A stretch of DNA of 64,000 bases, taken from the NCBI GenBank assembly GCA_017395425.1, contig JAFPUM010000054.1, forward strand, positions 51,706-115,705. Reading direction: 5' to 3'. Position 1 is the stretch's first letter. Each line of letters begins with the position of its first letter. The translations under genes were made by a program, and so were the position numbers. The DNA is from Clostridia bacterium. Its GTDB lineage: Bacteria; Bacillota; Clostridia; Oscillospirales; Acutalibacteraceae. The notes under the pieces are model-generated. The model saw only the letters and a program-made list of their open reading frames with translations. It ran no database searches and was not told the DNA's origin. Shown here piece after piece: positions 10,169-18,315 of this stretch.

Positions 10169-10477
10169 CTAATGCAGCAAAATCCACGCCAGCGTCAGCA
10201 GAAGCGCCAGAATCAGCAGAATGGGACCAAACACCAGCAGTGCGGAAAAGATCAGCGCAAATACATCTCCCTTTTCCAGCCCCAAATCCTCATTCTGCCG
10301 CCGATACGCTTCGGCCTTCGCCATGGCCTCGCGAATATCTTCCGCATTTTGTGTATCTTCGGATAATTGTTCTTTGTCCGATGGCTCAGCCTGTTCCATC
10401 GTTTGCAGGAATCGTCGATTGCGTTCCTGCATAACCTCCATATCTCGCTTGACTTTTTTATCAAACAACATAAACAA
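10169..10477 (-). CDS. Small hypothetical protein with C-terminal membrane helix
   Basis: 102 residues. The start is a TTG at 10477 with GGGAG seven bases upstream; an in-frame ATG at 10471 is the alternative. Residues 1-75 are highly charged and helical (KKVKRDMEVMQERNRRF, EDIREAMAKAEAYRRQ); residues 76-101 form one hydrophobic helix (FSALLVFGPILLILALLL). A tail-anchored topology with a cytoplasmic coiled region is likely. I do not recognise a family. It stands between the Opp operon terminator and the lipoprotein promoter. Confidence 0.6.
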   Translation of the reverse strand: MFMLFDKKVKRDMEVMQERNRRFLQTMEQAEPSDKEQLSEDTQNAEDIREAMAKAEAYRRQNEDLGLEKGDVFALIFSALLVFGPILLILALLLTLAWILLH

Positions 10478-10601: not shown

Positions 10602-12167
10602 TTATTCCGTATCCTTCTCCTGATTGACGGGAGGCAAATCGGAAATATCGCCCAGAATATGGTGACATGCCACAAAGTGATTGGGTCTGACTTCCCGGAA
10701 TTCCGGAGTGATGTTTTTGCAGACGTCCGTGCAATATTTGCAGCGGGTGTGGAATTTGCAGCCCTTGGGAGGATTGACCGGACTGGGAATATCGCCTTCG
10801 AGAATCACCAGCTCACGGTCATCATCTACATTGGTCGTGGGAATGGCTGAGAGCAGCGCCTCGGTGTAAGGATGAAGCGGGTGGTCAAACAACTCCTGCG
10901 AATCACTCAGTTCCACCATATTGCCCAGATACATAACACCAATACGGTCGGAAATATACTTGACAACTGACAAATCATGCGTAATAAAGAGATAGGTGAG
11001 ATTATTCTGTTCCTTCAGATCCTGAAGCAGGTTAATAATCTGCGACTGAATGGAAACATCCAACGCGGAAACCGCTTCGTCACAAATCACAAATTTCGGA
11101 TTGGTGGAAAGCGCACGGGCGATGCCGATGCGCTGGCGCTGTCCGCCCGAAAACTGATGCGGAAAACGGTGGATAAAATAGGGCGCCAGTCCGCACTTGG
11201 TCATGATTTCCAGAATGCGATCCTGCATACGGGGACTGTTTTTGCTGTAATACTTATGGGCGACCATGCCCTCGCCAATGATCTGTCCCACCGTCATTCT
11301 GGGATTGAGCGACGAATAGGGATCCTGGAAAATCAACTGCAATTCGCTCCGGAAACTGCGCATTTCCTCGGTAGTCAGACGGGACAGATCAATGCCGTCA
11401 TCGCGGTAGACCTCGTACTTCTGAAATTCAGGGTCATCGGCGTAAGGTTCGCGCATTTTATCGATTTCGCCTAATGCCTCGTCCAGTTTGCCACGCGTTT
11501 CACCCAGTTTGGTATCAATTTCTTCGAAGTCCTTCTTCAGGGAAGCAACCTTGCTGTCGCCCTTCCCTTTATTCTGCAATACATACTCCGCGTCTGCCAG
11601 CTTGCTTTCCAGCACACGGCGGCGGTCGTTCAGCTTGCGGATTTCCGCGGAATGGGAACGTGCCTTCATAAACGCTTCCTGAATCGGCGCGCAATCGTCT
11701 ACGGTCATAAAGCCGCCGAAGATACTGGCAATATTGAAGAGCGCCGCATCGGCATCCCTCTTGGCTTGACGGAGTGCCTCGCTTTTGGCGTTCTGATCAC
11801 TTTCGCCCGCTTTGTCAAAAGCCGCCTGCGCCTCTTTTTCTTTCTGCTGAAGTCTGACCAACTCTTTTTTCAGTGAGGGAAGGTTTTTAATCGTATCGTG
11901 AACGTACTGCGGCGCAAATTCATCCAGCGACTGTCCGTAATACATGGTGCGTCCGTCGGTCTGCGGATAGAGCTGGAGCAGCGTGCGTCCGAACGTGGAC
12001 TTACCGCAGCCCGATTCGCCGACCAGACCGAAGGTCTCGCCTTCATAAATATTTACGTCGATACCGTCGTTCGCTTTGACATACAGCCCCTTGGTACTGA
12101 GCGGAAAGTACTGCTTCAGATTGGTGATTTTAAGGAGAATTTTCTTTTCGCCGTTATTTTGTGCCAT
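10602..12167 (-). CDS. oppF: Oligopeptide ABC transporter ATPase OppF with large helical insertion
   Basis: 521 residues against about 320-330 for usual OppF. Walker A GESGCGKST is at 50-58, the Q-loop at Gln281 (IFQDPYSS), the signature FSGGQRQR at 339-346, Walker B FVICDEAVSALD at 359-370 and the H-loop at His397. The C-terminal cysteine-rich OppD/F extension GCKFHTRCKYCTDVC is at 469-483. Between Walker A and the Q-loop about 170 extra residues form charged heptad-like helices (see 11403-11915). All catalytic motifs are intact, so it should be an active ATPase that powers peptide import. The start overlaps oppD by 14 bp. Last gene of the opp operon. Confidence 0.92.
   Translation of the reverse strand: MAQNNGEKKILLKITNLKQYFPLSTKGLYVKANDGIDVNIYEGETFGLVGESGCGKSTFGRTLLQLYPQTDGRTMYYGQSLDEFAPQYVHDTIKNLPSLKKELVRLQQKEKEAQAAFDKAGESDQNAKSEALRQAKRDADAALFNIASIFGGFMTVDDCAPIQEAFMKARSHSAEIRKLNDRRRVLESKLADAEYVLQNKGKGDSKVASLKKDFEEIDTKLGETRGKLDEALGEIDKMREPYADDPEFQKYEVYRDDGIDLSRLTTEEMRSFRSELQLIFQDPYSSLNPRMTVGQIIGEGMVAHKYYSKNSPRMQDRILEIMTKCGLAPYFIHRFPHQFSGGQRQRIGIARALSTNPKFVICDEAVSALDVSIQSQIINLLQDLKEQNNLTYLFITHDLSVVKYISDRIGVMYLGNMVELSDSQELFDHPLHPYTEALLSAIPTTNVDDDRELVILEGDIPSPVNPPKGCKFHTRCKYCTDVCKNITPEFREVRPNHFVACHHILGDISDLPPVNQEKDTE
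11403..11915 (-). other. Predicted coiled-coil insertion in OppF
   Basis: Encodes about residues 85-255. It is rich in Lys, Glu, Ala and Gln, with stretches such as KKELVRLQQKEKEAQAAF, AEIRKLNDRRRVLESKL and LKKDFEEIDTKLGETRG that look like antiparallel coiled coil. A short uncharged patch (FNIASIFGGFMTV) lies mid-way. It enters the ABC core where the RecA-like subdomain meets the Q-loop and leaves the catalytic motifs untouched. Confidence 0.8.
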
Positions 12168-13173
12168 TTTGTCTTTCCTCCTTATTGGGATAGAAGCAGC
12201 GTACCTGCTGCTTATCGCTGATCTTGGTCAGCTCCGGCTCGCACTCGCGGCATTTGTCGGTCGCGTATTTGCAGCGGGGCGCAAACTTGCAGCCTTTGGG
12301 CAGGTCGAGCGGATGCGGCACCGCGCCGGGAATCGCCTGCAAACGCTCGTTGGCGGGCGTGTCAAGGCGTGGAATGGAAACCAGCAGTCCCTCGGTATAG
12401 GGATGAGAACAGGGCGTTTTCGGGTCAAACAGCACCTTCGCGGGCACACTCTCCACCACCTGTCCGCAATACATGACCGCCACAAAATCAGCCATCTGAT
12501 TGATAACGCCGAGGTCGTGGGTAATAAACAGAATACTGGTGCCGCGTTCGGCTTGCAGTTCGTTCATCAAACGGAGAATCTGCGCCTGAATGGTCACGTC
12601 CAGTGCCGTGGTAGGTTCGTCGGCAATGAGCAGCTTGGGCTTGCAGGCAAGCGCCATGGCAATCATCACGCGCTGACGCATACCGCCGGAGAGTTGGTGC
12701 GGATACTGTTTGGCGACAATCTCCGGATTGGGAATCTTCACTGAACGGAGAATTTCCACCGCCTGTTTGGCGGCTTCCTTCTTATCCATGCCCTGATGAA
12801 TCATGAACACTTCCGAAATCTGCTTTTCAATCGTAAAGACCGGATTTAAACTGGTCATCGGCTCCTGGAAAATCACGGAGATATCGTTGCCTCTGACCTC
12901 ATACATTTCGTTTTTGGAAATTTTTGTCAGGTCTCTGCCGTCAAACAGAATCTCACCGCTGTCAATGTAGCCGTTCTCGTCGAGCAATCGCAGAATGCTC
13001 ATGGCGGACACGCTCTTACCCGAACCCGATTCGCCCACGATACCCAACGTTTCACCCTCGCGCACGGCATAGGAGGTGTCATTGACCGCCTTGATCACGC
13101 CGCGGCGGGAGGTAAAAAAGGTGTGCAGATGCTTGACTTCCAGCAGGAACTTTTTTTCTTTGTTTTCTTCCAT
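12154..13173 (-). CDS. oppD: Oligopeptide ABC transporter ATPase OppD
   Basis: 339 residues, the usual length. Walker A GESGSGKS at 47-54, Q-loop IFQEPMTSLNP near 101-111, signature LSGGMRQR, Walker B LLIADEPTTALD, H-loop ITHD, and a cysteine-bearing C-terminal segment GCKFAPRCKYATDKC. It pairs with OppF to hydrolyse ATP for import. Unlike its partner it has no insertion. A weak ribosome site (GGTAAG) precedes the ATG. It overlaps oppF and follows oppC by 63 bp. Confidence 0.95.
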   Translation of the reverse strand: MEENKEKKFLLEVKHLHTFFTSRRGVIKAVNDTSYAVREGETLGIVGESGSGKSVSAMSILRLLDENGYIDSGEILFDGRDLTKISKNEMYEVRGNDISVIFQEPMTSLNPVFTIEKQISEVFMIHQGMDKKEAAKQAVEILRSVKIPNPEIVAKQYPHQLSGGMRQRVMIAMALACKPKLLIADEPTTALDVTIQAQILRLMNELQAERGTSILFITHDLGVINQMADFVAVMYCGQVVESVPAKVLFDPKTPCSHPYTEGLLVSIPRLDTPANERLQAIPGAVPHPLDLPKGCKFAPRCKYATDKCRECEPELTKISDKQQVRCFYPNKEERQNGTK

Positions 13174-13236: not shown

Positions 13237-15114
13237 CTATCTGCCGTTGGCTTTGGGATCAAGGGCGTCACGGAGACCGTCGCCGATCAGGTTGATACAA
13301 ATGCAGGCTACGCCGAAAATCGCGCCGACAAACAGCCAGTTCCACCAGTAGTTCTGAATGATAATGCTGTTATTGGCGCCGGTCAGCATATTGCCCCATG
13401 TAGGCGTGGGCAGCGGCACACCGAAGCCGAGGTAAGAAAGAGTGGATTCGGTCAGCATGGAAGTACCGAAAGCAAGCGTGATGGATACCAGACAAACCGA
13501 CATGACATTGGGTATGATATGGGAGAAGATGATCTTTCCTTCCTTGACGCCCAACGCTTTGGCAGCCACAACATATTCCATCTCGCGCTGCGCAAACATC
13601 TGGGCGCGCACCAGACGGCACAGTCCCGGCCATGATAGAATACCCAATATCACCATGATGATATACATTCGCTGTTCCACCGTCACCTTGGTACCCATAA
13701 CCGCGGAAAGAATCATGGCAAAGGGGATAAACGGCATGGAGGAAACCACTTCGGCGATACGCATGATGACCATATCCACCACGCCGCCGAAGTAACCGGC
13801 GATACCGCCGAGGATGATGCCGATGATCATCTCAATCACAACCGACAATGCGCCGATGGTCATGGTCATCTTGCCGCCGTTGACCAGACGGGCATAGACG
13901 TCACGTCCCAGACCGTCGGTGCCAAGCAGGAAACCTTTCAGACCCCATGTGTGAATCTTGCCGTCGGTATCGACCGCGTAATTCTGGAAGGAACCGGTGT
14001 ACATTTTTTCGAGTTTGACGTCGATGATATTCTGCGGAACATCGAGCTGCTTATAGCGGTTACTGCCCCAGCAAACCACATTGCCGTCTTCGAGACGCGC
14101 CGCGTAATGGTAACGGCCGCCCTCAATTTCCACTACTTTGGAGGAAAATTCCGGCACTTTGTTTTCACCCTTGGTGGAGGCACCCCATACCACCACACTG
14201 CCGTCATCCTTGAGCGCTGCAATGGTGTTGCTGCTGCCGGCAATAGCGGTAACGTGGAACGTCGCTTCAAAGGGAATCTTGGTTGCGGCGGTAGAAGCAT
14301 TATTATTGCCGCAAACCACGCTGCCGTTGTCGGTCAAAAGGACATAGGCGGTATTGGTCAGTGCCGCATCCACCACATGACCGTCCAGTTCGGAAGCTTT
14401 ATAAGAAAGATCGGCAAAGTTTTCGTTGCCCCAGAGAATCGCGCGATTGTCATCGGTGACCACCAGTGAGAACTGGTCGGAAGCATAAATCTCGCGGATA
14501 CCGAATTCATGGGTGCGATTGTTGGTCATGAGTTCGGACGGAAGGGTAGTCTGACGCAGACGGTTATTGCCCCACGCGTAGAGCGTTCCCTTGTTATCCA
14601 GCGCGAGAACATGGTCGCTGCCCGCCGCCACTTTGACAATTTTGGCTTTGCGGACGTTATCCGGCACATCCGCCAGATCAATTACCTTTGTCACCTTGCT
14701 TTTGCCCCAGACATAGAGATTGCCTTCTTTATCGGCGCCCACGGAATAATTCCGTCCAACCGCAATATCCGCAACGCCGTTTTTCTGGAGTTCGTTGGGA
14801 ACATCCATCATATCGTAGCCGGGCGCGACAAACACCAGCGTACTGTCCTGTTCGCCCAGATCCAGCTTGACAAAGTGCGGAGCAATAAAGACGAAGAGTG
14901 CAATGACGATAAACACGCACAGTGCCACGACCGACATGGGATTGGAAAAGAAGTTGCGGATCACCATGCGCATCGGACTTTGCATCTGTTCCTCGGCATA
15001 AATATCCAGTTCCTTGTTGGGGAAAAGCAGACGCTTGATCCAGCGGAACAGGAAAAATTCCTTGATCTGCTTGGCGGAGCCATTGTTGGTGGTTTTGTTC
15101 TGATTTTCGCTCAT
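13237..15114 (-). CDS. oppC: Oligopeptide ABC transporter permease OppC with extracellular RCC1-like propeller
   Basis: 625 residues; ordinary OppC is about 300. Residues 1-60 are cytoplasmic, 61-79 the first membrane helix, about 112-393 an inserted RCC1-like domain, and 394-625 the usual permease core (GTDGLGRDVYARL at 398-410, five further helices, the EAA-loop AAKALGVKEGKIIFSHIIPN at about 517-536, and a terminal GDGLRDALDP). The insertion enters the loop between helix 1 and the GTD-LGRD block, which faces outward in OppC. Everything needed for transport is present. The start has GGAGG nearby and lies 18 bp after oppB. The domain may contact OppA, the wall or substrate (inference). Confidence 0.93.
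   Translation of the reverse strand: MSENQNKTTNNGSAKQIKEFFLFRWIKRLLFPNKELDIYAEEQMQSPMRMVIRNFFSNPMSVVALCVFIVIALFVFIAPHFVKLDLGEQDSTLVFVAPGYDMMDVPNELQKNGVADIAVGRNYSVGADKEGNLYVWGKSKVTKVIDLADVPDNVRKAKIVKVAAGSDHVLALDNKGTLYAWGNNRLRQTTLPSELMTNNRTHEFGIREIYASDQFSLVVTDDNRAILWGNENFADLSYKASELDGHVVDAALTNTAYVLLTDNGSVVCGNNNASTAATKIPFEATFHVTAIAGSSNTIAALKDDGSVVVWGASTKGENKVPEFSSKVVEIEGGRYHYAARLEDGNVVCWGSNRYKQLDVPQNIIDVKLEKMYTGSFQNYAVDTDGKIHTWGLKGFLLGTDGLGRDVYARLVNGGKMTMTIGALSVVIEMIIGIILGGIAGYFGGVVDMVIMRIAEVVSSMPFIPFAMILSAVMGTKVTVEQRMYIIMVILGILSWPGLCRLVRAQMFAQREMEYVVAAKALGVKEGKIIFSHIIPNVMSVCLVSITLAFGTSMLTESTLSYLGFGVPLPTPTWGNMLTGANNSIIIQNYWWNWLFVGAIFGVACICINLIGDGLRDALDPKANGR
13936..14781 (-). other. Seven-repeat RCC1-like beta-propeller insertion in OppC
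   Basis: Encodes about residues 112-393. Seven blades can be counted by their repeated G(N/S)xxVWG ends: VWG at 135-137, AWG at 180-182, LWG at 227-229, VCG at 267-269, VWG at 309-311, CWG at 348-350 and TWG at 389-391. Each is preceded by a pattern like AxGxxHxLALxxxG. Seven blades is the canonical RCC1 number, so the insertion could close a complete propeller within the permease loop. Confidence 0.88.
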
Positions 15115-15131: not shown

Positions 15132-16151
15132 TTACTTGTCAATGCGCACGCGCGGGTCAACCAGCGTATAGCTGAGATCGGTCAGCAGCACGCCGATCAG
15201 GCTCACGAGGGTATAGAACATCTGCATGGCGAGCACCAGTTCATAGTCGGTGGTGTTGAGCGCCGACCAATAGAGACGTCCCGTGCCATTCAGGGCGAAT
15301 GTCGTCTCGATAACCAGCGAGCCGCCGGTGAAGACACTGATCATCCAGCCCATGATGGAGGTGGAAACCGGCAGCAGCGCATTGCGCCATGCGTGGCTGT
15401 AAATGACAACCTTTTCCTTCAAGCCTTTGGCGCGGGCGGTACGGATGTAATCCTGCGATAGGGTATCCATCATCGCGGCGCGCACGGTTCTGGTCATGCC
15501 CGCCAGACCCGTGAACACCAGCACGATGATCGGCAGCATCATGTAATACATGCGGTCGCCGAATTCCGCAATGCCGGTATAGGTGGAGCCGGGCGTTTTG
15601 GCACCGCCGGTGGGTAAAATCTTGAGCCACACGGCAAAAATGAAAATAAACAGAATACCGACAAGGTACGTCGGCAGGCTGTAACCTACCACAGTACCCG
15701 CCTGAATCACATTGTCCGACGTCTTGCGGGCATGTACCGCGCAGTAAATGCCCAGCGGAATGGTGATGGCAAGGGTGATGATTGTGGAAACAAGGTTGAG
15801 AATAATGGTGTTGAGCATAGGCGTACCCATGATGTCTACCACATCACGCTTATAGCTGATGGAATAGCCGAAGTTGCCTTGCAGCATACCCTCAAATTTG
15901 CCGCTGACATCGGGCATGAAGCCCATCCAGCGGGCGTATCTTTGCAGCAGCGGCGCGTTGAGACCCATCGACTCACGCAGTGCCTGATACTGCCGCTGCC
16001 ACTCGTCGGGCTTGAGCGATTTGCGCAGAGGCTCCATCTGCACCATCGCCGGGTCGCTCGGAATCAGATTGTAGATGGCATACATCATCAGAGAGACGAC
16101 GAAGAAAACAATAATCAGATATACGATTCGCTTGAGAATGTATTTTTTCAT
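15132..16151 (-). CDS. oppB: Oligopeptide ABC transporter permease OppB
   Basis: 339 residues from the ATG of MKKYILKRIVYLI, 12 bases after GGAGG; a TTG at 16163 abuts that site and is less likely. First membrane helix at about 10-30, then the periplasmic-type loop, five further helices and the EAA-loop RTARAKGLKEKVVIYSHAWRN. The C-terminus DLSYTLVDPRVRID is typical of OppB/DppB. Forms the channel with OppC. Followed by oppC after 17 bp and preceded by a 187-bp spacer holding a heptamer array and a hairpin, which may lower its expression relative to oppA. Confidence 0.95.
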   Translation of the reverse strand: MKKYILKRIVYLIIVFFVVSLMMYAIYNLIPSDPAMVQMEPLRKSLKPDEWQRQYQALRESMGLNAPLLQRYARWMGFMPDVSGKFEGMLQGNFGYSISYKRDVVDIMGTPMLNTIILNLVSTIITLAITIPLGIYCAVHARKTSDNVIQAGTVVGYSLPTYLVGILFIFIFAVWLKILPTGGAKTPGSTYTGIAEFGDRMYYMMLPIIVLVFTGLAGMTRTVRAAMMDTLSQDYIRTARAKGLKEKVVIYSHAWRNALLPVSTSIMGWMISVFTGGSLVIETTFALNGTGRLYWSALNTTDYELVLAMQMFYTLVSLIGVLLTDLSYTLVDPRVRIDK

Positions 16152-16185
16152 ATATCCAATCAACCTCCATTTCTTTTGAGAATTG

Positions 16186-16338: not shown

Positions 16339-18315
16339 TTACTTTGCGCTTTCGCCCACATAATCCGCGTACAGGATGGCTCTGTCATAGCTCCAGAACG
16401 GACCTTCCTGATAGTTGGTGATGGAATTCGGATAAATGGTGACATAGATGTTGGAGTACAGCGGCACTCTGGGGAGAATCTCGTTGTAACGGATAACAAA
16501 CTGCTGCCACTTATCGAGGTAAGTCGCGTAATCGCCGGGCTCAACGCCATAAACCATATCCATCGAGAGCTTATCGAGCTGCTCGTCATAGCAATGGGTG
16601 GAATTGTAACCGTCAGCGATATAGTTTTCGTCGGTGGTAAACTCAAAGGAGAAGTCATACACGCCGCCGGACCAACCGGTCGCGAGGTTGAACATATTGT
16701 AGGTAGGCACAGAGTAGTCGCCGCCGATGCCATAAGCATCCTGACGATACATATAGTTGAGCAGTTCGGGGAAGGTCATAACGTTCTGCTTGATTTCCAC
16801 GCCGGCTTCCTTGGTAGCGGCGCCGTTGGCAAGCATGGTCACGAGCAGGTCAGAAACGGAGTTGCCTTCGGAAGAAGCCCAGTTCAGGGTAGCGGACATG
16901 AGAATCTTGTCGCCCTTCTTGACACAGAAGTTGTCATAGTTGAGAGCCTGCTCCGCGGTGACTTCCTTATAGCGGAGTTCGCCGCTGCCGTCCACATAGT
17001 CGCTGCCGTCCTTGTTGTAAACAAAGCCGGCGCTCTTGAGCAGTTCCACTGCCTTGGCAGGATCATAGCTGTAAGTGTTCAGCTTTTCAGCAAGAATGTC
17101 CTTGCTGTCGTTGTACATGGTGAAAGCGGTGCAGTAAGGACCGTGCACAACGCCGCCCCAGCCGGCACAGAAGGTCTTGGCGAACTCGGTGCGGTCAAGG
17201 AGGTGGGCAATCGCCTGACGGAACTCTACGAACTGTGCAGGACCGAGGTCGCAGGCAAACTGGAAATAACCGAAGCCCGCGCGGTCATACTGGCAGTAAG
17301 AGCTGTCGATGGTGCCGTTGTCGATAAGGTCGATCGCAGCGTTGACCTGAGCGCCGTCCGCGATACCGGAGTAAATCTGAATGCCGCCGGTTGCGATGGT
17401 GTCGATGACGGTGTCATCTTCGGTCTTGACGATGATGATCTTCTTGATGCCGGGCTTCTGACCCTGGAAGTCGCCGGCGTAGTTTTCGTTGACTTCGAGC
17501 GTGATCTGATTGGCGCTCTTGTCGAAATCTACCAGATTGTAAGGACCGGCGGTTACGCGATCCTTGGTGGCAAACTGGGCTTCCTTGACGGTGTCGCCGA
17601 TGTCAGCCACAGTGAGGCTCTTGCCGTTGCTGTTGGTGAGGTAAGCGCCCTTGCCGTCGTCCTTGACAGACCAACCCTCGCCGAACCAGTAGGTGAGGTT
17701 TACAGCACGCATGGCGGCATAGCCAAGATCATAATAATAGGGCAGATAGCTGTTGCCGTCATAGCCCTTGGCGAGAACGGTAGTAGAGAACTTGTAATCG
17801 TCGAGCAGGCGAAGACCTTCGAGGTAATCAACCTTGCCTTCACGGTAGTCCGCACCGCCGGGAATCATGTTGTATTCTGCGGTGACAGTACCCATTTCCT
17901 TACCCGCAGCACTCAGAAGAAAGAGCTTCCATGCGAGGAAGTTCTCGGCTTTGATCGGATCGCCGTTGTTGAACTTCAGACCCTTCTTGATTTCGAAGGT
18001 GTAGGTGGCGTTGCCGTCAGCGTCGGTGGTGCGCTCATAGTTCTTGACGATGGAATCGTTGAGAACATAGTCGCCGCCCTCGTTGGTGGTGACCGTCAAA
18101 CAGTCATCGGTAAGGGTCATGACATCTTGGTCGGTCGCGTTGGGGTTGCTGGTGAAGGCGCTGTAAGCCCAGTCACCGTTAGCCTCTGTACCGGTGCCGA
18201 TGATAACCTGACCTTCGGCTTTTCTCTTTTCCTTGCAGCTTGTGAGCGTGACAGCCATAGCGGTGAGCATACCGATTGCCAGCAGCAAGCTGAGGATACG
18301 TTTGTGCATTTTCAT
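16339..18315 (-). CDS. oppA: Peptide ABC transporter substrate-binding lipoprotein OppA
   Basis: 658 residues. A signal peptide with lipobox LTSC (Cys27) directs lipid anchoring. Family SBP_bac_5: VKNYERTTDADGNATYTFEIKKGLKFNNGDPIKAENFLAWK is split here by its blocks YTFEIKKGLKFNNGDP (about 105-120) and ENFLAWKLFLLS; later FRQAIAHLLDR and YDPAKAVELLKSAGF are standard. Length exceeds the 520-600 usual for the family. It captures peptides and delivers them to OppBC. GGAGG lies ten bases before the ATG. First gene of the operon; its upstream region (18316-18755) is AT-rich, with a long leader and a striking palindrome at 18513-18541. Confidence 0.94.
   Translation of the reverse strand: MKMHKRILSLLLAIGMLTAMAVTLTSCKEKRKAEGQVIIGTGTEANGDWAYSAFTSNPNATDQDVMTLTDDCLTVTTNEGGDYVLNDSIVKNYERTTDADGNATYTFEIKKGLKFNNGDPIKAENFLAWKLFLLSAAGKEMGTVTAEYNMIPGGADYREGKVDYLEGLRLLDDYKFSTTVLAKGYDGNSYLPYYYDLGYAAMRAVNLTYWFGEGWSVKDDGKGAYLTNSNGKSLTVADIGDTVKEAQFATKDRVTAGPYNLVDFDKSANQITLEVNENYAGDFQGQKPGIKKIIIVKTEDDTVIDTIATGGIQIYSGIADGAQVNAAIDLIDNGTIDSSYCQYDRAGFGYFQFACDLGPAQFVEFRQAIAHLLDRTEFAKTFCAGWGGVVHGPYCTAFTMYNDSKDILAEKLNTYSYDPAKAVELLKSAGFVYNKDGSDYVDGSGELRYKEVTAEQALNYDNFCVKKGDKILMSATLNWASSEGNSVSDLLVTMLANGAATKEAGVEIKQNVMTFPELLNYMYRQDAYGIGGDYSVPTYNMFNLATGWSGGVYDFSFEFTTDENYIADGYNSTHCYDEQLDKLSMDMVYGVEPGDYATYLDKWQQFVIRYNEILPRVPLYSNIYVTIYPNSITNYQEGPFWSYDRAILYADYVGESAK

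Follow-up and report, generated by a model that had tools for sequence, protein, structure and literature searches.

We find that OppC, a permease subunit of an oligopeptide ABC importer encoded in the window (the whole 64,000-nucleotide stretch of clostridial DNA that was analysed), carries a seven-blade propeller of the RCC1/BLIP-II type in the outer loop between its first two transmembrane helices (TM1 and TM2). Sequence comparisons identify this propeller Opp system as one member of a real, conserved subfamily of peptide importers, which is apparently unnamed and whose design is widespread but apparently unstudied. ABC permeases with outer domains have been described before, as have RCC1/BLIP-II propellers, and it is their combination that appears to be new.

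The oppC gene is an open reading frame of 625 codons on the minus strand, and the plus strand of 13237-15114 has stops. The first-pass annotation had described an otherwise normal OppC of this length, which is borne out by the presence of both the OppC_N and the BPD_transp_1 domains. These domains, with a GTDxxGRD block ahead of TM2, are those of the permease of an Opp-type peptide ABC importer, and the remainder of the operon (a family 5 substrate-binding protein, a second permease and two oligo_HPY ATPases) has the composition of an Opp importer. The permease core aligns with E. coli OppC (8z21) at E 1.7e-46. Opp4C is the closest NCBIfam model, with a score of 289.7 bits that lies below the equivalog cut-off of 350, and OppC is a relative of this equivalog, not a member. 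In the window's genome no second OppC-type permease was found at E 1e-3, the second match falling in OppB. The positions of all features are collected in Table 1.

Table 1. Features of the propeller Opp operon in the window, and loci in which OppC carries a different insert
Feature	Position	Strand	Basis
oppF, 521 aa, ATPase with ~170-aa insert	10602..12167	minus	Pfam
OppF insert, ~residues 88-255, boundaries by eye	~11403..11906	minus	ABC_tran and OppF models match in two stretches
oppD, 339 aa, ATPase	12154..13173	minus	Pfam, NCBIfam
oppC (labelled oppC*), 625 aa, permease with inserted propeller	13237..15114	minus	ORF translation, Pfam
Permease core from GTDGLGRDV onward, residues 399-625 (with BPD_transp_1 at 432-622)	13240..13920	minus	Pfam
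Seven-blade RCC1/BLIP-II-type propeller, residues 97-391	13942..14826	minus	Pfam, profile search, alignment
Blade 7, residues 351-391; conserved QNY 377-379	13942..14064	minus	
Blade 6, residues 312-350; conserved R334 and H336	14065..14181	minus	
Blade 5, residues 270-311	14182..14307	minus	alignment register
Blade 4, residues 230-269; most divergent, canonical terminal G in 11/67	14308..14427	minus	
Blade 3, residues 183-229; R185 and Q214 invariant (67 rows)	14428..14568	minus	
Blade 2, residues 138-182; conserved D167 and H168 in AB loop	14569..14703	minus	
Blade 1, residues 97-137	14704..14826	minus	alignment register
OppC_N, residues 46-92, contains TM1 (~residues 57-79)	14839..14979	minus	PF12911, E 9e-10; hydropathy peak 60-78
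oppB, 343 aa; own TM1-TM2 loop (read by eye)	15132..16163	minus	Pfam, NCBIfam
oppA, 658 aa, substrate-binding protein (SBP_bac_5)	16339..18315	minus	Pfam
Other insert at TM1/GTDxxGRD junction	L141-L149, L182-L185, L187-L190, L192, L193; L159		
Paralogues with other inserts	L090:19115-20872; L058:11696-13237; L065:1-1308		

Within residues 97-391, no 19-residue segment reaches the hydrophobicity of a membrane helix, the maximum Kyte-Doolittle mean there being 0.88, compared with 3.13 for TM1. The loop had been read as facing outward, and this holds up: it is the TM1-TM2 loop, placed by homology with the solved DppC and OppC and with the Ami model. A cytoplasmic propeller was ruled out by the order TM1, insert, GTDxxGRD, TM2, together with the homology to DppC and AmiD; the charges in residues 1-56 (9 K+R, 6 D+E) give a positive-inside count that is weak taken alone. 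Within the window there was no Rfam match at gathering thresholds, and neither terminator-like sites (10, against 10.2 in shuffles, hence no excess) nor promoter-like sites (16, against 8.2) were informative.

The insert measures ~295 residues, somewhat more than the about 280 first estimated, and the seven blade ends read from the sequence proved exact (VWG137, AWG182, LWG229, VCG269, VWG311, CWG350 and TWG391). Two Pfam models match above their cut-offs, RCC1_2 (PF13540) at E 2e-37 with 126.5 bits against 22, and RCC1 (PF00415) at E 7e-9 with 36.5 bits against 21.7. The whole-domain model WD40_RLD (PF25390) matches at E 8.5e-40, but its 137.6 bits lie under its own cut-off of 150, and the propeller is therefore a clear yet divergent relative. 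When a profile built from 67 family members (A4) was run against the PDB, BLIP-II came first (E 5.8e-46), followed by HERC2, RCC1/SRM1 and UVR8, and more weakly by the plant receptor kinase ACR4 (7a0j, E 1.5e-8). The first reading stands as to seven RCC1-like blades, with the correction that, among solved structures, the propeller is closest not to eukaryotic RCC1 but to BLIP-II from bacteria, whose blades are short (~40 residues). RCC1 is grouped with BLIP-II, a secreted binder of soil bacteria, in passages of a survey of propellers (PMC9218822).

Seven blade segments of 37-55 residues each are present in 67/67 aligned sequences, with median blade lengths of 39-46 and a total propeller length of 277-312, and there was no sign of blade gain or loss among these rows. 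A chance repeat or a miscount of blades was ruled out by the Pfam matches, the profile match to BLIP-II and the blade register, and a closed toroidal ring is very likely, given the homology to BLIP-II and RCC1. The ring is opened within the inter-blade loop of BLIP-II-like repeats, with its entry at P98 and its exit at TWG391-LKGFLLGTD, and P106 occupies the position of the proline found in other blades (P151, P281, P321 and P360). Blade 7 continues directly into L392-K393-G394 and then into GTDxxGRD. Since start and end both lie in the inter-blade loop, the propeller would be held by two short links, both leaving from one face, as follows from an antiparallel meander topology. Two ~300-residue frames from the same class (G338:C32:16507-17055 and G509:C1:819179-819628) also match the propeller profile, and are possibly free-standing BLIP-II-like proteins.

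The window's genome is a metagenome-assembled genome (MAG), drafted in 62 contigs, and such a draft could in principle produce an artefactual assembly or gene fusion. The first-pass annotation had raised the case of a fusion absent from close relatives; in fact, a same-genus genome and relatives in eight families of the order share the architecture, and with the order-level and named-genome relatives described below they rule out an assembly fusion, leaving an artefact of this MAG with next to no probability. Among 295 genomes of the same order there were 23 strong matches (E 1.5e-40 or better), the window's own genome included, and the next match reached only 3e-11. In every one of the 23 the propeller leads on to the GTD block, although further on some are cut by a contig end or by a broken frame. 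In the class, 17 of 391 genomes matched at E 5.3e-45 or better with frames of 609-707 residues; these overlap partly with the order-level genomes, and were counted by match and frame length. Among 100 genomes of the same family, four have the long form with a core identity of at least 59%, including the window's own and the same-genus genome, and the three besides the window's own proved on reading to be propeller OppCs as well. Scanning named genomes gave 153 encoding stretches, and the best 80 of the 153 are OppC with propeller without exception (80/80). The architecture, for which the first-pass annotation had proposed a search of OppC homologues, thus recurs in many Clostridia. The named-genome records are mostly MAGs, many of them from gut and rumen and some labelled Erysipelotrichaceae or Anaerolineaceae/Chloroflexi, and five are named strains (Hungatella effluvii, Falcatimonas sp. 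MSJ-15, Soehngenia longivitae, Acetivibrio ethanolgignens and Gemmiger sp. An120).

The propeller lies at the same junction in 23/23 order-level matches and in the 67 rows of alignment A3, which covers the 80 loci apart from 14 (L035 and L051, which are partial, and twelve omitted to limit size). When 83 permease cores were placed in a tree, those with a propeller, 43 in all, fell on one side of one branch with an SH-aLRT value of 100; this tree was made by a quick method with SH-aLRT as its sole support measure and has long branches at its deepest joins, and for it A3 was thinned to 40 rows, L161, in which the motif is missing, was dropped, and L166-L181 (sixteen known propeller genomes) were omitted. 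Cores at least 48% identical to the window's were all long, at 608-633 aa in the family sample (4/4) and, among the matches listed, at 586-667 aa in a second sample (17/17), with the window's genome included in each, and the next core below, at 47% identity, lies in a 351-aa frame. Accordingly, no loss of the propeller inside the clade was seen among the listed cores of these two samples. Over the 67 rows, propeller identity tracks core identity (Pearson 0.86, Spearman 0.74), as would be expected if the two are inherited together.

Sequence change is faster in the propeller than in the core (mean identity 45% versus 67%), with dN/dS values in six pairs of 0.07-0.17 and 0.006-0.08, respectively, which are rough because propeller dS rises to 2.6, near saturation. 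These ratios indicate that the propeller is under purifying selection. The possibility that it is a tolerated insertion with no specific role, serving stability or spacing only, appears improbable to us; the low propeller identity, the degenerate blade 4 and the fact that the loop accepts unrelated inserts in other OppCs would fit it, but it agrees poorly with purifying selection, with the retention of seven blade segments in every aligned row and with the lack of loss in the two samples. Outside the common blade pattern, 22 positions are conserved in at least 85% of weighted rows. When the two faces of the propeller were assigned by meander topology, 14 of these positions fell in AB and post-C loops, on the face that bears the links (among them D167, R185, Q214, R334, Q377 and L392-K393-G394), two in BC turns and six in strands. 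No difference in mean conservation separated one face from the other (p 0.72; p 0.71 with structural positions left out), and only the list of conserved non-pattern positions appears to lean toward one face.

The TM1-TM2 loop of OppC also carries other domains. Of 22 loci with core identities of ~42-47% (L140-L149, L182-L193), 19 have a different insert at the same junction, mostly of ~225 residues and up to 385, and three have none. By BLAST, these 19 inserts fall into one cluster together with the insert of the L090 paralogue, a type that the sister clade of the propeller OppCs carries widely. The propellers make up another cluster, and neither is matched by the inserts found in L159 and in the L058 paralogue, which gives the propeller, the sister-clade domain and at least two further insert types that are similar to neither of them; in this comparison the L065 protein (436 aa) fell below the length limit, and L143 was shortened by the start chosen. 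No Pfam domain above cut-off was found in the inserts of nine proteins tested, including the L058, L065 and L090 paralogues. On the tree, the label "other insert" requires four changes (gain or loss), three of them forced by starred branches. Since unrelated sequences occupy one site in OppC, the loop has, on this evidence, acquired outer domains more than once, and these comparisons point to it as a recurrent slot for outer domains. A further step, which we put forward only tentatively, is that the clostridial OppC loop may be a modular slot that furnishes each importer with its own surface receptor, each with a separate binding target, in which case the propeller would bind an external peptide source, a wall fragment or a protein, and not only OppA.

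Across the 80 loci, the opp genes beside propeller oppC share a single strand and follow the order A-B-C-D-F, with oppA present in 72/80, oppB in 79/80, oppD in 78/80 and oppF in 71/80, and the missing genes are all at contig ends except for oppA of L070 and L095. OppA has a median length of 650 aa (range 533-721) in the 60 complete operons, and among solved structures its best match is a 562-residue OppA (9p48). The N terminus of the window's OppA resembles a lipoprotein signal (LTSC, by eye). At three loci (L055, L075 and L106) two OppA matches lie upstream of a single propeller OppC, one of them being a 103-aa piece in L055; in L075 and L106 both are full-size, which suggests that one permease may work with two binding proteins. 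The flank clusters present in at least six loci were an ABC ATPase (20 loci), an M3-type peptidase and a small protein that is hydrophobic at its C-terminal end. The M3-type oligopeptidase gene, identified from one representative (Pfam E 6.8e-26), occurs in the flanks of 19/80 loci (e.g., L036:1532-3223), within 3 kb in 18 of the 19 and on the operon strand in 15 of those 18. Homology and these peptidase neighbours support oligopeptide import as the probable function of the propeller Opp system. The cluster of small proteins spans eight loci (e.g., L042:11104-11532), and in seven of them the gene lies downstream of the operon at no more than 3 kb and on the same strand; in the window, a protein with a C-terminal hydrophobic segment and no Pfam match is encoded just downstream of oppF (10169-10477, minus strand), and was tied to this cluster by eye through an EKGD motif.

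OppF is also enlarged. Its insert lies between Walker A and the Q-loop and gives weak matches to coiled-coil models, and an OppF of at least 420 aa is found in 60/68 complete propeller systems compared with 0/17 of the non-propeller operons inspected, an association that merits separate study. The OppF insert is not strictly tied to the propeller, since the other 8/68 propeller systems have a short OppF. The association bears on a reading in which the propeller, placed over the OppB/OppC mouth, would control opening or signal occupancy in a BceAB-like manner, without gripping OppA. This reading draws on the pairing of OppC with OppF, by homology with DppC-DppF, on the short, near-invariant link to the permease (L392-K393-G394, then GTD), and on the large outer loops of BceAB/VraG-type transporters, which act in sensing according to parts of the literature on them; but the two inserts are not bound together, and no kinase or sensor family recurs in at least six flanks, and we therefore consider a gate or regulator unlikely, although less so than a tolerated insertion.

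The role that we favour, at about even probability, is suggested by the Ami and Dpp transporters: the propeller may be a docking platform beside lobe 2 of OppA. In passages describing an AlphaFold model of the pneumococcal Ami transporter, a coil between TM1 and TM2 of AmiD (64-99), the OppC-type subunit, contacts lobe 2 of the binding protein, and AmiC is proposed to offer lobe 1 a platform in its extra domain ECD2 (PMC11192437). For E. coli Dpp, the TM1-TM2 scoop of DppB is described, in the parts of the report that bear on it, as entering the DppA cleft, with DppA forming a cap over DppB and DppC (PMC12136057). The propeller occupies the loop that makes the lobe-2 contact in AmiD, and an OppA docking platform is therefore favoured. 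On such a platform, the link-bearing face of the propeller would point to the membrane and the seat of OppA, and the propeller would grip the membrane-anchored OppA by its lobe 2 as the scoop of OppB enters the OppA cleft; it could thereby keep OppA seated over the channel in a cell without a Gram-negative periplasm, and assist the sealing of the cavity during peptide release.

Several observations weigh against docking. The Ami lobe-2 contact is itself predicted by an AlphaFold model. E. coli Dpp operates without a large insert, and so do seven inspected clostridial operons in which OppC has 295-347 aa. In a mirror-tree analysis of 53 of the 60 complete operons from the 80 loci, the partial correlation of the propeller with OppA was only 0.13, showing no special tie to OppA, compared with 0.30 for OppB, 0.26 for OppF and 0.36 for the core, and 0.47 between OppA and OppB. 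Thus, co-evolution with OppA is unsupported as a proof of docking, and neither the mirror-tree nor the face-wise conservation favours OppA docking.

The same lack of excess co-variation with OppA fits a receptor, in which the free faces of the propeller would engage some extracellular partner that is not OppA (peptides or proteins, wall glycan, or an enzyme such as a surface protease or a PBP-like one) and bring in the substrate or its source, much as BLIP-II binds beta-lactamases. The closest solved relative, BLIP-II, is described in part of PMC9218822 as a secreted protein binder; ACR4 is among the weaker profile matches, and the faster evolution of the propeller would suit a changing partner. 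However, no extra surface-protein family was present in at least six flanks of the 80 loci, some of which have short flanks, and many of the family-specific conserved residues lie on the membrane-link face. We judge a receptor to be about half as probable as the docking platform, and so a possibility to be held with some doubt.

The docking platform, if it exists, would bear on how Gram-positive cells retain a binding protein at its permease, which in our judgement is poorly known. A large, conserved permease domain with free-living relatives of known structure makes the retention of binding proteins testable, and peptide uptake is important for the amino-acid-using anaerobes of gut and rumen. 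The different inserts at one junction suggest a general route to new surface functions in importers.

In the open-access literature, which was searched without subscription journals and preprints, no description of a propeller-in-OppC architecture was found among the matches listed, and no paper combining RCC1 with OppC was found. The propellers of RCC1, UVR8, HERC2 and ACR4 belong, by profile, to the same superfamily as that of OppC, but are those of eukaryotic proteins that are not transporters. BLIP-II (1jtd, 3qhy, 9t9p) is the best solved sequence match and shares the short-blade RCC1/BLIP-II-type repeat units, but it is a free secreted protein, whereas the OppC propeller interrupts a loop of a permease. 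The P2 domain of MalF, which belongs to a sugar importer (that for maltose), has a different fold and lies in a different permease loop. Its likeness to the propeller OppC is that MalF-P2 is a permease outer domain that contacts the binding protein, MalE, as described in part of PMC3150292. The pneumococcal AmiC/AmiD pair is a Gram-positive permease of the Opp type in which large outer domains, proposed from AlphaFold, clamp the binding protein, but these domains are in AmiC, with no propeller mentioned in the passages on them, and AmiD has only a coil of 36 residues at the propeller site (PMC11192437). The E. coli DppABCDF and OppBCDF transporters (8z1v, 8z21) are of the same permease family and share subunits B, C, D and F, but their OppC and DppC, at ~300 aa, have no room for an outer domain, and the special outer element of Dpp, in the parts of the report that deal with it, is instead the scoop of DppB (PMC12136057).
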